This document shows positions 58,126 through 64,000 of a DNA stretch of 64,000 nucleotides, one piece after another. The first letter of the stretch is position 1. Each line of letters opens with the position of its first letter. Source of the DNA: Agitococcus lubricus (lineage in GTDB: Bacteria > Pseudomonadota > Gammaproteobacteria > Pseudomonadales > Moraxellaceae); assembly GCF_003051055.1 (NCBI RefSeq), contig NZ_QAON01000007.1, positions 62,001 to 126,000 of the forward strand. The letters are read 5' to 3'. Position numbers and translations under genes: made by a program. The notes beneath the pieces were generated by a model. It ran no database searches, was not told the origin of the DNA, and saw only the letters and a program-made list of their open reading frames with translations.

Positions 58126-59436
58126 TCAACTTAATAACTGTTGCTTAAACAAGTCGGCAAATTGTTCGATTGCTTGCTGGCTAAACTGCGACTGACGATA
58201 TCTAAAGGCAAATAACAAACGCTCGCCAAAGCAGACAATTCCCACCGAAATGCTACAAGGCATGGGTGCAGGCGGCGAAAAATAGACACTTTTAATACGT
58301 CCTGCCTCGCCCATCGTGAAGTCATCTGACAAACGTCCCAAGTTAGACACCCATGTTGTTTCCATCAACACTTTGCCAAAAATGGGAAATAACTCCTTTA
58401 AGCGGGCTTTTAAGTAAGCAGGTAAAAACTTAGGAATAGCTAATAAATCAATGAGTGTACCTGCCGCCCCTGCCTCCTTGAAACTTGTGGTTTGTTGGCA
58501 AATCGCCAGTGATAATGACTCTAACTGTGTTTGTTGTTCGGGCGTGACGGATACCGACACATAGGAAGAAAAATTACCAATCACCTCATGCCACCATGCT
58601 TCTGGTCGTAAATTCACAGGCATCATAATCGCAATCCGACCGACTTCTTGGCCATGCTGTACATTCCATTGTTTAATGGCTAATGACATGGCTGCTAATA
58701 GCATATCGTTCACTGTCGCAGGTTTACGCCGACGCGCCATAAACTGTTTCGTTTGCTCGGGTGTTAAGGCCAAGATTTGCACACCGTAACCTGCAATATC
58801 ATCCGCATGGTGAACATGTACCCCTTCTGAGGCAATACGTACTGGCGGTTGTCGACTATTTCCTAAATGCTCTAATAATAATTTGGTACGTTCTAAACGT
58901 TGTGCCATCGTTTTTGCACCCGCTAGTTTCAATAAATGACGCACCGAGAGTGGGTCGATAGGCGGCACAATGTCGGCTTGTTCGCTATAAAAATTGACCA
59001 CCGAACGAATTAAACGAAACGTCCCCAAACCATCAGCTAAGATATGTGGCACATTAAACAAGAGATAATCCCCTTCTGGATAATGCACCAAATAGACAAG
59101 AAACGCAGGACTCAGGTGAATCGGCACTTGAATGGTCGCTAAACGGCGGCGTATGTCGACAAGGTCTTGTTGTGTTTGTGCATGCCACACCGTTAAGGGC
59201 AAGTGGTCAATGTGCTCAGGAAACTCCCAATAATAACGGCTTTCTACACCATCATGATAACGCATACGTGCATGGGCTAAAGGATGTTGACGTATGGCTT
59301 TTAATAAGGCTAGTTCTAAACGCTCGCGCACAATTCGACCTGTCACTTGGATTTCTAAGTGAATACTCCATGTATCAGGTCGGCGTTCAATATTGAAAAA
59401 AGTCGCATCTAAGGAATTAAACTCGGTGGTTTGCAT
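58126..59436 (-). CDS. WS/DGAT-like acyltransferase (condensation-domain fold)
   Basis: This is a 436-residue protein of the CoA-dependent acyltransferase/condensation superfamily, close to wax ester synthase/diacylglycerol acyltransferases. The active-site motif is PHILADG: His 131 and Asp 135 are present, but the first His of the usual HHxxxDG is Pro. The second family signature appears as GRIAIMMPVNLR with VSNLGRL later in the chain. The ATG at 59436 begins QTTEFNSLDATFF, which matches the family N-terminus; a longer in-frame start is less likely. Acyl transfer is probable, the acceptor unknown. Divergent from 59755. Confidence 0.85.
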   Translation of the reverse strand: MQTTEFNSLDATFFNIERRPDTWSIHLEIQVTGRIVRERLELALLKAIRQHPLAHARMRYHDGVESRYYWEFPEHIDHLPLTVWHAQTQQDLVDIRRRLATIQVPIHLSPAFLVYLVHYPEGDYLLFNVPHILADGLGTFRLIRSVVNFYSEQADIVPPIDPLSVRHLLKLAGAKTMAQRLERTKLLLEHLGNSRQPPVRIASEGVHVHHADDIAGYGVQILALTPEQTKQFMARRRKPATVNDMLLAAMSLAIKQWNVQHGQEVGRIAIMMPVNLRPEAWWHEVIGNFSSYVSVSVTPEQQTQLESLSLAICQQTTSFKEAGAAGTLIDLLAIPKFLPAYLKARLKELFPIFGKVLMETTWVSNLGRLSDDFTMGEAGRIKSVYFSPPAPMPCSISVGIVCFGERLLFAFRYRQSQFSQQAIEQFADLFKQQLLS

Positions 59437-59561
59437 CTTGAGTCTCGTGGTCTTAATTAGGTCATATACCCTGCATATTTTATATAACACACAAATAACA
59501 AAAAAGCAGTCTTAAGTCTTTATTAGCGTATTTCATGTGTTCAAGCGTGGCTATTTTCATG

Positions 59562-59576
59562 CAGTCATCATGACTG
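59562..59576. promoter_or_regulatory. 15-bp palindrome, candidate TetR-type operator
   Basis: The sequence CAGTCAT-C-ATGACTG has perfect 7-bp arms around one central base. It is in the divergent promoter region and about 125 bp from the acyltransferase start. Its shape suits a homodimeric regulator such as the TetR protein coded at 61809-62462, but nothing proves that pairing. Confidence 0.55.
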
Positions 59577-59683
59577 AATAAGCTAAAAGGAACGAATCAG
59601 TGTATTTTTATAGTTTACTCCGCCCTAAAATAATCATAAATATTTCTGTTAAACGGTTTTATAAAAAACTTGCCAAAGATGTT

Positions 59684-59733
59684 AAAAAAGCACAATATAC
59701 GTAACATATATGTTACGTATATTGTGCTTTTTT
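59684..59733. promoter_or_regulatory. Perfect 50-bp palindrome upstream of the GMC oxidoreductase operon
   Basis: Twenty-five bases read identically on both strands with no spacer: the left arm is AAAAAAGCACAATATACG followed by TAACATA, and the right arm is its exact reverse complement. The inner part ACGTAACATATATGTTACGT is itself an ideal dimer operator. It ends 21 bp before the ATG at 59755. No gene terminates into this region, so it is not an ordinary terminator; it may be an operator or a leader hairpin with a T6 tail. Confidence 0.75.
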
Positions 59734-59754
59734 GTTTAGATAGAGCGAGTTTCC

Positions 59755-60207
59755 ATGCCTCCTATTACCAATACTATGTCTCTAGCGCAGCTAGTCGATT
59801 GTTTTAAAACAGCGAGCTTACCCACATTGACCCAAAGAGATGGCTTTTGGCGGGCGCGTTTTGTTGGCCCTTTATGGTTAAGACTCGGTGGCATGCCCAG
59901 TTGTTATATCTCAGGTTTATGGGGTTGGTTAGGCAAAAAGTTTTTAACCCCCCATCGCGCAACGAATGTATTAAAGCGTGCTGAAAAAACCATTGATGCA
60001 CTCTCTATGCAAGCACAAGCACGGGCATCGTCTATAGATGGCAATCCTGTTATTGCCCTCACCTATGGTTCAGACGCACCTATTCCTTGGCGTTGGGTGA
60101 CTGATGAATTAAGAGCCTTAGATGACAGTACGTTATTGGGTATGACACGTGTCGACTTACCCTTAATTCGTCATTTTATCTTTCCCTTTATTTTAGAGCG
60201 CGATTAG
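59755..60207 (+). CDS. Conserved-looking hypothetical protein before the GMC oxidoreductase
   Basis: This is a 150-residue protein I cannot assign. It has no signal peptide. Hydrophobic, Trp-rich stretches (FWRARFVGPLWLRLGGMPSCYISGLWGWLGKKFL) suggest peripheral membrane contact, followed by a charged middle (NVLKRAEKTIDALSMQAQARASS) and a compact C-terminus ending PFILERD. The GMC oxidoreductase gene begins 2 bp after it, so the two are co-translated and probably work on the same lipid substrate. Confidence 0.65.
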   Translation: MPPITNTMSLAQLVDCFKTASLPTLTQRDGFWRARFVGPLWLRLGGMPSCYISGLWGWLGKKFLTPHRATNVLKRAEKTIDALSMQAQARASSIDGNPVIALTYGSDAPIPWRWVTDELRALDDSTLLGMTRVDLPLIRHFIFPFILERD

Positions 60208-60209
60208 GC

Positions 60210-61814
60210 ATGAGCACTGAAATTGACTATGACATTCTTATTGTCGGTTCTGGCTTTGGTGGCAGCGTCAGTGCCCTACGTTTAGCCGAAAAAGGTTGGA
60301 AAGTGGCTATTTTAGAAATGGGCAGACGCTTAAGCTCAGAGGATTTCGAAAAAGCCGCCACCAGCACCACCGCATTGTCATGGATGCCGAGTTTGGGCAT
60401 GAAAGGCTTTTTTGCCCAAGAAGTCTTTCAACATGTCGCTATTTTACGCGGGATTGGTGTGGGTGGTGGCAGTAATGTCTATGGTGCCGTCTTGCTTGAG
60501 CCTAAAACGGCATTTTATCAAGACACTGCTTGGTCGCACTTAAATGCAAATTGGCAACACGAATTAGCCCCACATTACGACACTGCTCGTCGCATGTTGG
60601 GTATTAGTCACAATCCTTATCGGGGTATTCAAGATGAATGGCTAGAGAAAGCTGCCCATAAGATGGGGGTTGGTCATACCTTTGGCGCGGTACCACAAGG
60701 TATTTTTTTTGGTCAGACGCAGGGGCTGAATCCTGACCCGTATTTTGATGGCCAAGGGCCTGCACGTCAGGGCTGCACACAATGTGGTCGTTGTTTTACA
60801 GGCTGTAGTTATGGCGCTAAAAATTCGCTCGATAAAAACTATTTGTATTTTGCCGAACGTGCAGGCGTCACGATTTTACCCGAGCATAAAGTCACCCACA
60901 TTGCGCCATGTCATGGGGGTGGGTACGTGTTATATGTAGAGCATCCGTGGCAAAAAGATAAAACTTACCGTCCATTAAAAGCTGCAAAAGTGATTTTGTC
61001 GGCAGGCGCACTCGGCACACAAGAAATTTTATTTAACTCACGTGACCGTTATCAGACATTACCCCATATTTCGGACACCCTTGGACAACGCGTGCGTACC
61101 AATAGTGAAGCGCTAGTCGGAATTTTGGCAAAAGATTCGCAGATTGATGTCACTCAAGGTACGGCTATTTCAACACATTTCTATGCTGATGACAAAACGC
61201 ATCTAACCCAAAATCGTTTACCACCCAGTTATAGCATGATGAAGTTTTATATGGTACCAATGGTAGATGACACACATCCGCTACGTCGAGCGATACGTAC
61301 CTTATGGGCTTATATGCGGCATCCCTTAAACGCCTTTCGCGTCTATTTTGCGGCTAATTGGTATAAACGCACCACCTACTTAACAGTCATGCAACACGCT
61401 GACAATGAAATGGCATTTAGTTTTGGCCGTAGCTTATTACGGGGCTTTCGCTTTGCTTTACGCTCGGAACTGGCCAAAGGTGGGCGTACACCATCGTTTT
61501 TGCCTCAAGCTAACGCGGCGGCGCGGGCAGTTGCTGAAGTCAGCGACGGTATTCCGCAAAACATGATTGTAGAAAGTCTTGGCAATATGTCCGTGACGGC
61601 GCATATTTTAGGTGGTGCTGTGATGGCAGATAGCCCACGTACAGGAGTCATTGATATTGACCACGAAGTTTTTAATTACCCGCATTTGTATGTGGTTGAT
61701 GGTTCTGCTATTCCAGCTAATGTGGGTGTCAATCCTAGTTTAACCATTACCGCACTGGCCGAACGCTTTGCGGCGCGTTTTCCTAAAAAACACCCCACAG
61801 GATACAGCTCATGA
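60210..61814 (+). CDS. GMC-family FAD oxidoreductase, steroid/cholesterol-oxidase-like branch
   Basis: This is a 534-residue flavoprotein. The FAD-binding loop is YDILIVGSGFGGSVSALRLAEKGWKVAILEMG, and the GMC signature LRGIGVGGGSNVYGAVLLEP follows. A ferredoxin-like cluster of four Cys (C189, C192, C195, C199; CTQCGRCFTGC) lies before YGAKNSLDKNYLYFAE, a feature of the GMC branch that contains bacterial sterol-type oxidases. The C-terminal NPSLTITALAERFA motif is typical. There is no signal peptide. The substrate is likely a hydrophobic alcohol; this is inference. It overlaps the convergent TetR gene by 6 bp. Confidence 0.88.
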   Translation: MSTEIDYDILIVGSGFGGSVSALRLAEKGWKVAILEMGRRLSSEDFEKAATSTTALSWMPSLGMKGFFAQEVFQHVAILRGIGVGGGSNVYGAVLLEPKTAFYQDTAWSHLNANWQHELAPHYDTARRMLGISHNPYRGIQDEWLEKAAHKMGVGHTFGAVPQGIFFGQTQGLNPDPYFDGQGPARQGCTQCGRCFTGCSYGAKNSLDKNYLYFAERAGVTILPEHKVTHIAPCHGGGYVLYVEHPWQKDKTYRPLKAAKVILSAGALGTQEILFNSRDRYQTLPHISDTLGQRVRTNSEALVGILAKDSQIDVTQGTAISTHFYADDKTHLTQNRLPPSYSMMKFYMVPMVDDTHPLRRAIRTLWAYMRHPLNAFRVYFAANWYKRTTYLTVMQHADNEMAFSFGRSLLRGFRFALRSELAKGGRTPSFLPQANAAARAVAEVSDGIPQNMIVESLGNMSVTAHILGGAVMADSPRTGVIDIDHEVFNYPHLYVVDGSAIPANVGVNPSLTITALAERFAARFPKKHPTGYSS

Positions 61815-62462
61815 TTTGAAGGTGGTTGCTGCCGAACGTAACATCGCTAAAAACATATGTGTCGTCATTTCACACTGTTGGTCTACTTCTTCCCGACTCA
61901 CAGGATAATGACGAAACACAACCGCCCCTGCCGTTTCCACCCAATTTACGAGTGTTTCAATCACACGTAATGGAATATGTGGTAACCCCAAGGCCTGCGC
62001 TTGCTGCTCAATCAGACCAATCGCCACATTAATTGACTGTTGGCGATAGCGTTGGGCAATAGAGCCTGTGGTAAATCCTTCCCGATAAATACCTGTGACG
62101 ACTGAGCCCTGCTCTAATCCCCAATCAAAATAAGCGCGCACCCCTGCACGTATGCGTGCTTCTGCTTGCTCGCATTTGGCAACTTCAGACACCAAACGAA
62201 TCACCAAATCGGCATTGGCTTTGGCAATCAAGGTCTCAAAGACTTGTTCTAAACCTTGGGGAAACCAACGATAAAACGTAGGCCGCGATGTCCCTGTTTC
62301 TTGTAATAATAATTCAACACTGATTTCACTGGATTGACGCGTCGCTAATAATCGACCTGCGGCAAGCAAAACGGGTGTCTGCCGTGCAATTAACGCACTG
62401 CCAGCAATACGAGGGCGACCACGTTGACGTGGATTATTATCAGAGAGAGTATCGTTTTTCAT
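61809..62462 (-). CDS. TetR-family transcriptional regulator
   Basis: This is a 217-residue regulator. The N-terminal region is unusually basic (DNNPRQRGRPRIAG). The TetR helix-turn-helix is LLAAGRLLATRQSSEISVELLLQETGTSRPTFYRWFPQGLEQVFETLI. The C-terminal ligand domain follows. I chose the ATG at 62462 (KNDTLSDNN). It lies between the GMC oxidoreductase and ceramidase genes, so those genes and the divergent acyltransferase are likely targets, possibly through the palindromes at 59562 or 59684. Confidence 0.86.
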   Translation of the reverse strand: MKNDTLSDNNPRQRGRPRIAGSALIARQTPVLLAAGRLLATRQSSEISVELLLQETGTSRPTFYRWFPQGLEQVFETLIAKANADLVIRLVSEVAKCEQAEARIRAGVRAYFDWGLEQGSVVTGIYREGFTTGSIAQRYRQQSINVAIGLIEQQAQALGLPHIPLRVIETLVNWVETAGAVVFRHYPVSREEVDQQCEMTTHMFLAMLRSAATTFKS

Positions 62463-62503
62463 GGTTTGATTATGCCACAAACCCATAGGCTGAGCTGCGT
62501 TTT

Positions 62504-64000
62504 TTAACGCCTTGGCGGCGTTAAATTACTCCTTAAAGCCAACTCATGTGCAGGTACGGGCAAAGGTTGGGTGTGTTGGTCATACTGACGCTGATGTGCA
62601 GGCAAGGCGAACTGCTCGGCTAGTTTGGCAAAACACGTTTGAAAAGCAGCTAAGGTCCATTGGCCATAAATCGTATGGCCGCCTTCATACGCCTGTTGTT
62701 GATATTCTTCGTAGGTGGTGACATAACCCATGTAGTCATTACAATAGGTACAAATTAACACCTGCTCAATGTTTGCAGTCGCTAAGATTTGTCCCACGGT
62801 TTGTACCACCCGCTGCCCTGCAATAGTCGTAAATTCACCAGGACAACAAACAATAGCTATATTACCTAGACGCACAATTTGAATCGGCAATACCGTTGGC
62901 ACCATTGCGCTTTCCTTCATGGCTCCTTTCGCCGCTTGACGTTTTAACTCTGCCACTAAGGGATCGGCAATCGCAGGCACCATTAATTTATCAATCGCTT
63001 GCCCCAAAACTTGTTTACGCCCTGCTTCGAGCATAATATCCTTAACCCCTTGGGCAGCATATAAACGTTGATAATACTGCTGCTCGGCTAGCGTTAATTT
63101 GTGCAAACGCCGCAAACGCGTGGTTTTAACCACACGCGCTAGTTGCTTGGCAACTTTACCAATGGCCATAGGCATACCCGGCCCATCCACACGCGTACCT
63201 GTAAAAAATGCCACACCATGACACGGCTGGCTGGTAAACGCTTGCTGTTCGCCATTGGCAAAACGAGGTTCAGCATGTTGATTGCTTAAATCGACATAAG
63301 TCAAAATGGCATCTAACGCGCCTGTAATGGGTAAACTAGCTTGTTGAATAATCTTTAATGCGTGTTCGGCTTGCAGGCGACCATTTTGCTCGGCATAGGT
63401 ATATTCTTTTTCTCCCTGCCACTGCTTGCGACGCACAATATCATTTGGCCCATGATAATGGGGTGACACATCCCCTGCTGTTGCTTGTGCAAAAATTGCC
63501 ACAGGTGCAGTAATGCCTTGTTGTGTCAATGCAGCTTCGGCAGCCACCGCCGCATAGCCTTTGTTATCGGCACAATATTTAGTTTGATTATTACCCACCG
63601 CCGTTGCATGAACCCCAAACAACGACACAAACGCTGCTACTTGTCCTTGATGACGAATCGCTAAAACAGGCATTTCTCGGTTTAAGGCTAAATGACATTG
63701 CTGATGATTTAATTTTGTCACTTCAGGATTACGATTATAAGCCTCTAATGAACGATTCCACGCCACTGCTGTCGTTTCGGCAAAGGCCGCATGTGCCAAG
63801 CTCAGCTCGACAGGTTCTAAATGTGCGCGTGCTACTAATAATGCATCAACCGTTGCTAACACAATTTGCGCTAAGTTATCTGGCACAAAACCGGGGGTCA
63901 CCACATTATACAAGGCATCGTGAGTGCATCCGCCCGGCCCTGAATGGGTATGCGTACAGGTTAAGACCAAACGCTCTGGGTTAAAGTGCTCACCAAGTTT
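62504..64000 (-). CDS. Neutral ceramidase-like amidase, 5' end outside the window
   Basis: This is an incomplete gene: the frame runs open to the window end (64000), so the N-terminus is missing. The visible 498 residues match the alkaline/neutral ceramidase family: VLTCTHTHSGPGGCTHDA holds the zinc His and catalytic Ser region, then SLFGVHATAVGNNQTKYCADNKGYA, IFAQATAGDVSPHYHGP and CCPGEFTTIAGQRV. Family members hydrolyse the amide of ceramide. The C-terminal beta domain usual in longer members is absent, since the frame stops at RSNLTPPRR. Lies after the TetR gene. Confidence 0.85.
   Translation of the reverse strand, partial: KLGEHFNPERLVLTCTHTHSGPGGCTHDALYNVVTPGFVPDNLAQIVLATVDALLVARAHLEPVELSLAHAAFAETTAVAWNRSLEAYNRNPEVTKLNHQQCHLALNREMPVLAIRHQGQVAAFVSLFGVHATAVGNNQTKYCADNKGYAAVAAEAALTQQGITAPVAIFAQATAGDVSPHYHGPNDIVRRKQWQGEKEYTYAEQNGRLQAEHALKIIQQASLPITGALDAILTYVDLSNQHAEPRFANGEQQAFTSQPCHGVAFFTGTRVDGPGMPMAIGKVAKQLARVVKTTRLRRLHKLTLAEQQYYQRLYAAQGVKDIMLEAGRKQVLGQAIDKLMVPAIADPLVAELKRQAAKGAMKESAMVPTVLPIQIVRLGNIAIVCCPGEFTTIAGQRVVQTVGQILATANIEQVLICTYCNDYMGYVTTYEEYQQQAYEGGHTIYGQWTLAAFQTCFAKLAEQFALPAHQRQYDQHTQPLPVPAHELALRSNLTPPRR

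Follow-up and report, generated by a model that had tools for sequence, protein, structure and literature searches.

Long palindromic operators are known from regulators of the TetR family. QacR, for example, occupies its operator IR1, a palindrome of 28 bp, as two dimers. EthR binds 55 bp as a homo-octamer, and its operator has been described as composed of direct repeats and nearly perfect inverted ones (PMC9210681). Here, a stretch of 64,000 nucleotides from the genome of Agitococcus lubricus (the whole stretch is referred to as the window) was analysed, which carries a perfect 50-bp palindrome in the promoter region of an operon for a 150-aa protein and a GMC oxidoreductase. This palindrome is very probably the operator of the TetR-family regulator encoded at 61809-62462. 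Like QacR IR1, the locus combines a TetR-family regulator with a long, here predicted, palindromic operator near a promoter (PMC9210681); it differs in sequence and in length (50 bp versus 28 bp). EthR is among the closest PDB sequence and fold relatives of the window regulator and also has a long operator, but the two proteins share about 20% identity and the EthR operator consists of direct and nearly perfect inverted repeats instead of one perfect palindrome (PMC9210681). It adjoins the oxidase gene ethA, whereas the window palindrome precedes the 150-aa/GMC oxidoreductase operon. The EthR target ethA encodes a flavin oxidase, too. The features of the locus are as follows.

58126-59490, minus strand: condensation or WS/DGAT-like acyltransferase gene, divergent, a possible second target (Pfam PF00668, 58.3 bits)
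59477-59506, no strand: a further, weak operator-like site where the divergent gene begins (14.5 bits, the runner-up in the window)
59684-59733, no strand: perfect, spacer-free 50-bp palindrome AAAAAAGCACAATATACGTAACATATATGTTACGTATATTGTGCTTTTTT (direct sequence check; single copy)
59684-59693, no strand: left outer arm A6-GCAC, a terminator-like end resembling A/T-tailed hairpins of the A. lubricus genome
59694-59723, no strand: predicted 30-bp operator footprint, consensus AATTAACGTAACATTAATGTTACGTTAATT (33.9 bits with a model derived from 11 sites of other genomes)
59701-59716, no strand: predicted operator core GTAACATATATGTTAC, recurring at tetR orthologue loci
59718-59723, plus strand: TATATT, a possible -10 element read from the sequence by inference only, mirrored at 59694-59699 on the other strand
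59724-59733, no strand: right outer arm GTGC-T6, a terminator-like end resembling the same hairpins (terminator scan)
59755-60207, plus strand: gene for a 150-aa protein, first of the operon predicted to be controlled (no Pfam or NCBIfam match)
60210-61814, plus strand: GMC oxidoreductase gene, cholesterol-oxidase-like (Pfam GMC_oxred_N and _C)
61809-62462, minus strand: gene for the TetR-family regulator, the proposed binder of the palindrome (fold, profile and orthologue alignment)

A preliminary description of this DNA had reported a perfect palindrome of 50 bp without spacer, 21 bp ahead of the operon and flanked by divergent genes. Re-reading of the sequence bore this out, with 21 bases between the end of the palindrome and the ATG at 59755, the gene at 58126-59490 on the minus strand and that at 59755-60207 on the plus strand. 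The same description had seen a dimeric operator in the core and had named the TetR at 61809-62462 as its candidate binder; the core is indeed kept at orthologues of this regulator. It has the form GTAACA-N4-TGTTAC with 12 fixed positions. A search with three TetRs in GTDB genomes gave 12 loci, of which the weakest three (L044-L046, partial matches) were left out, and the nine remaining loci with a tetR orthologue include those of the congener Agitococcus sp. (G002) and of Fluviicoccus. A TetR-type operator should be an inverted repeat located in promoter regions of the regulator gene or its targets, and eight of these nine loci show one: the core occurs there with zero to two mismatches over the 12 positions, ahead of tetR, of the acyl-CoA synthetase operon that includes tetR or of the GMC operon. 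The exception is L036. The operator reading rests on this recurrence: in related bacteria, one and the same core accompanies this regulator and operon. We observe the core, the footprint and their placement together with orthologues of the regulator, and from these we infer binding, repression, a ligand and the exact promoter.

The congener, whose TetR is 62-63% identical to that of the window, features two sites without mismatch, namely GTAACATATGTGTTAC ahead of its 150-aa/GMC operon and the exact GTAACATATATGTTAC ahead of its acyl-CoA synthetase-tetR operon. The core is identical in 16 of 16 positions at L028:14533 and L037:1070, L037 not being independent of G002 (acyl-CoA synthetases 98.7% identical). 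One core site was found at L037, two at Fluviicoccus and one at each of L039 to L043, where it separates the divergent tetR from the GMC operon or from a short-chain dehydrogenase gene next to that operon. The sites of L040, L041 and L042 carry two mismatches and count less when taken alone, because five further two-mismatch sites occur in the 13 loci scanned (L028:6316, L039:5053, L039:7884, L036:8821, L031:6636). At L036, which encodes a TetR of 65% identity, there is no site at tetR, and the only one with up to two mismatches is located inside a gene; a GMC orthologue at E <= 1e-60 was found neither in the genome of L036 nor in that of L037. Four loci had been chosen as negative controls. 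Three of them (L030, L031, L033) have no site at up to one mismatch, L031 having one with two, and the fourth, L034, turned out to have two sites (7310 and 7345) between a GMC gene and the gene of a distant TetR (27% identity) beside it, so that the operator may reach beyond close orthologues. In the congener, a third and weaker operator-like site with two mismatches was observed at L028:6316-6331, before a START-domain gene.

Autoregulation of tetR is common in the TetR family, though not required. In the relatives, sites sit at tetR or its operon; upstream of the window's own tetR and of the preceding ceramidase-like gene, no site with up to two mismatches in 12 was found, and autoregulation is therefore not evident in the window. 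This gene, neutral ceramidase-like, shares the strand of tetR and immediately precedes it (62504-64000 and on; L027:6504-8234), with 17 bases between its open reading frame and that of tetR, and matches Pfam Ceramidase_alk with 309 bits, its NCBIfam score being under the cut-off.

A 30-bp model was built from the 11 sites of other genomes only, the window being excluded. It assigns 33.9 bits to the window site, compared with 14.5 bits for the next site in the window and 19.7 bits for the best one in the remaining 1.6 Mb of the genome that were scanned. Likewise, the arm GTAACA gave nine sites in six of the nine loci at up to one mismatch, while the 59 letter rearrangements compared with it (60 arrangements drawn, one being the true arm) reached at most three. 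When each of eight groups, with the window as one of them, was left out in turn, the 16-bp model placed the named site first in 8/8 loci, with the second sites at rank 2, and the 30-bp model did so in 7/8, although these ranks are partly circular because the model sites had been picked as best matches to the window core. The register at L042 is ambiguous, the best one being shifted by 11 bp. A genome-wide regulon was considered and rejected, since the whole genome holds seven sites at up to one mismatch in 12 versus ten for a reversed control, so that the core is not widespread in it; the six other than the window site all lie inside open frames. Among 369 genomes of the class, the exact core GTAACATATRTGTTAC occurs in two, that of the window and G185, and the latter match is taken as chance because the reversed control matches four genomes. 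The weak site at 59477-59506, where the divergent acyltransferase-like gene begins, is about 217 bp away from the palindrome centre; sites above 14 bits number 12 in 1.6 Mb of the genome.

The regulator itself features an N-terminal helix-turn-helix and the all-helical TetR fold. Its predicted structure comprises nine helices and the helix-turn-helix (pLDDT 85.6), the Foldseek matches at probability 1.00 include EthR, BkaR and FasR, a Streptomyces TetR regulator is also among the fold matches, and the profile of the family finds the FasR and EthR chains with E of about 1e-9. Scores for Pfam TetR_N are 15.7 for the window protein, 16.6 for the L028 orthologue and 27.9 for the L032 orthologue at a cut-off of 24. 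The open reading frame opens at 62486, and the orthologues align from 62462. GTSRPTFYRWF, the expected recognition-helix region, stands unchanged in seven of ten aligned regulators and is otherwise one or two residues off; G, T, S, P, F, Y, R, W and F are invariant in the ten sequences, and R60 and T62 vary at most once each. Such near-invariance is expected if the operator is common to these regulators. Members of the subfamily were found in Moraxellaceae and in Alcanivorax-, Marinobacter- and Thalassolituus-like records; a full-text literature search found no paper on it, a delta-proteobacterial match aside. An order-wide search of 390 genomes for the tetR orthologue returned two matches at E <= 1e-25, the window and G506, the coordinates of the latter fitting L039. 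Two further GMC genes (43% and 41%) were noticed in a Marinobacter genome.

Regarding the putative target, the 150-aa gene adjoins the GMC gene in relatives, too. The GMC protein reaches 502 bits against NCBIfam NF058674, under the cut-off of 850, and the divergent protein at 58126-59490 reaches 55.5 bits against TIGR02946, again under the cut-off. Genes for an acyl-CoA synthetase, a dehydrogenase and a START protein are found at the loci of the relatives, and together with the cholesterol-oxidase-like GMC protein this operon cargo suggests lipid or sterol oxidation. In the mechanism proposed, one TetR dimer would bind GTAACA-N4-TGTTAC, the conserved 30-bp footprint would provide space for a pair of dimers, and the bound repressor would block RNA polymerase at the promoter region of the GMC operon until a ligand, by our guess a fatty acyl compound, a sterol or an acyl-CoA, would free the operon from the repressor. 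The model accounts for about 30 of the 50 bp. The perfect extension to 50 bp is the odd part, seen so far only in the A. lubricus genome, and this symmetry is probably secondary, resulting from template-switch copying of one arm or from selection.

The promoter must overlap the palindrome or sit to its left, since no more than 21 bases separate the palindrome from the ATG. The TATATT at 59718-59723, which the consensus promoter scan did not report, would put the transcription start in the T6 run, and the hairpin would then be absent from the RNA. Because TATATT is found equally far from the core on either strand and the flanking genes are divergent, the operator might lie within a symmetric divergent promoter that drives the GMC operon as well as the WS/DGAT-like gene, with one repressor shutting both; this would add to the operator reading without excluding it. 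The weak second site near the left gene (59477-59506) is consistent with such an arrangement, as are the hexamers one base off the core, which consist of at least 5/6 A/T on both sides in 9 of 11 sites from other genomes, although AT-rich flanks may also be repressor contacts. Nevertheless, no convincing -35 elements accompany the mirrored hexamers, the consensus scan is silent on them and the start of the left gene is about 200 bp off, which makes a divergent promoter of this kind rather unlikely.

The preliminary description had further taken the palindrome for a possible terminator or attenuator. As such it would act as an attenuator or a bidirectional intrinsic terminator, with a promoter further left and an RNA hairpin followed by U6 stopping transcription before the operon. 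For the RNA of 59660-59760, a folding energy of -39.7 kcal/mol (z -9.4) was computed, and a terminator scan of 59400-59900 gave four sites compared with 0.3 expected, two of them being the palindrome on the plus strand. One weak plus-strand promoter was returned by the consensus scan at 59607-59634, although chance alone would give 1.7 compared with the 1 found. The ends GTGC-T6 and A6-GCAC resemble the A/T-tailed hairpins of the genome, of which 53, the palindrome included, were counted in a sample of 1.664 Mb (the window and 80 stretches of 20 kb, 44% of the genome). Like these predicted bidirectional terminators, the palindrome shows the order A-run, inverted repeat, T-run, and a hairpin followed by a T-run, as in intrinsic terminators, is present. 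It is unlike them in lacking a spacer, in having gene starts on both sides and in its AT-rich stem of 19 bp after the A-run: counted as a hairpin with a 4-base loop, it has 35% GC, the third lowest of the 53 (median 71%), and the whole palindrome arm has 31.6%, so the GC-rich stem of an intrinsic terminator is missing. Both flanking genes start here, hence no gene end needs a terminator, and transcription starting in the right arm would leave the hairpin untranscribed. Moreover, the paired outer arms (A6-GCAC and GTGC-T6) occur in none of the 11 sites compared in other genomes, which retain the core. Over 40 bp around the core, all 20 pairs are symmetric in the window, compared with 9 to 13 in nine sites from other genomes; symmetry past about 30 bp is not common to the relatives, and any terminator or attenuator role therefore looks lineage-specific. 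It is quite improbable that the palindrome is primarily an attenuator or terminator, while attenuation is a possible extra role beside the conserved one.

The palindrome is beyond chance. It is the only perfect spacer-free palindrome with arms of at least 9 in the 64-kb window, and the 1.664-Mb sample contains 17 of them, with arms of 25 (the one at 59684-59733), 18, 11 (five), 10 (one) and 9 (nine), so that only two exceed 11. A first-order Markov control of equal size gave a longest arm of 10, and by a hand estimate at 43% GC arms of at least 25 are expected about 5e-9 times in 3.74 Mb. A spacer-free palindrome of 50 bp is also unusual since bacterial inverted repeats are reported to favour 4-bp spacers (PMC13155455). 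The search for further copies that the preliminary description had called for found a single one in the assembly of 66 contigs and 3.74 Mb at up to three mismatches. A 38-mer core had no match in 57 relatives at up to three mismatches, and the exact 20-mer core was not found in the GTDB genome collection, which may omit the source genome or very near ones. The window gave no Rfam match at gathering score for a structured RNA family. That the palindrome is the end of a mobile element, a generic repeat or an assembly artefact, as its out-of-the-ordinary length and perfection might suggest, is extremely improbable, given one genomic copy (which rules out a repeat family or mobile element) and none in 57 relatives, a core kept at one kind of locus, a sensible gene order and flanks that are both unique sequence, where an assembly fold-back would bring inverted ones. 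The earlier argument that the preservation of an unstable palindrome speaks for function is weak at 50 bp, because an 85-bp interrupted palindrome is described as tolerated by E. coli with active SbcCD (PMC3315005). Hence, the evidence for function is the conservation of the core and not the survival of the palindrome.

Only one other long palindrome without spacer, of 36 bp, was detected in the sampled 44% of the genome (L087:18821-18856; G000:C8:78821-78856). It has a reductase/desaturase gene pair on one side and, on the other, a TetR-family gene scoring above the NCBI FabR cut-off (186.6 versus 151). A part of this palindrome, TACA-N2-TGTA, recurs at 5 of 24 other loci (L110, L112, L118, L119, L125), no more than 400 bp ahead of the homologue, with 0.09 loci expected from Markov shuffles and none of 500 shuffles reaching five. 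The motif is absent from the other 19, both congeners included, and the operator role suggested for the fabR palindrome by this recurrence is accordingly less firm than that of the window palindrome. Both loci share a spacer-free perfect palindrome beside a TetR-family gene; they differ in the core (TACA...TGTA at fabR) and in the regulator, and the operator role at fabR is likewise putative.

Two such palindromes suggest operators perfected by selection or template switching, the latter being reported to make perfect hairpins (PMC8794818). Operators in this genome may tend toward perfect palindromes, perhaps by template switching during replication. As a more detailed and rather doubtful version, operator dyads would seed template switching in which one arm is rewritten as a copy of its partner, and repressor sites would thereby expand to long, perfect palindromes (from 16 to 50 bp here; 36 bp in the case of fabR). 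With the terminator ends gained, the enlarged sequence would serve as a repressor operator in DNA and as a transcription stop in RNA. The stretch left of the core in Fluviicoccus L029, AAAAAAATCAAACAATATAC, resembles the left arm of the window, although this similarity falls short of significance (22 comparisons made, p 0.0085; p 0.30 when the last six bases are kept fixed), and the left flank of L042, despite a poor score of 1, gave a lower p of 0.0015. That the left arm was copied consequently stays a guess.

Altogether, the palindrome represents a newly predicted and well-supported operator of a TetR-family regulator. The analysis yields a concrete predicted operator sequence, the 30-bp consensus, together with a small predicted regulon for this regulator subfamily, which ties it to genes of GMC oxidoreductases, acyl-CoA synthetases and short-chain dehydrogenases. 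Moreover, the 50-bp form and its 36-bp partner at fabR offer a natural test case for operators becoming perfect palindromes.
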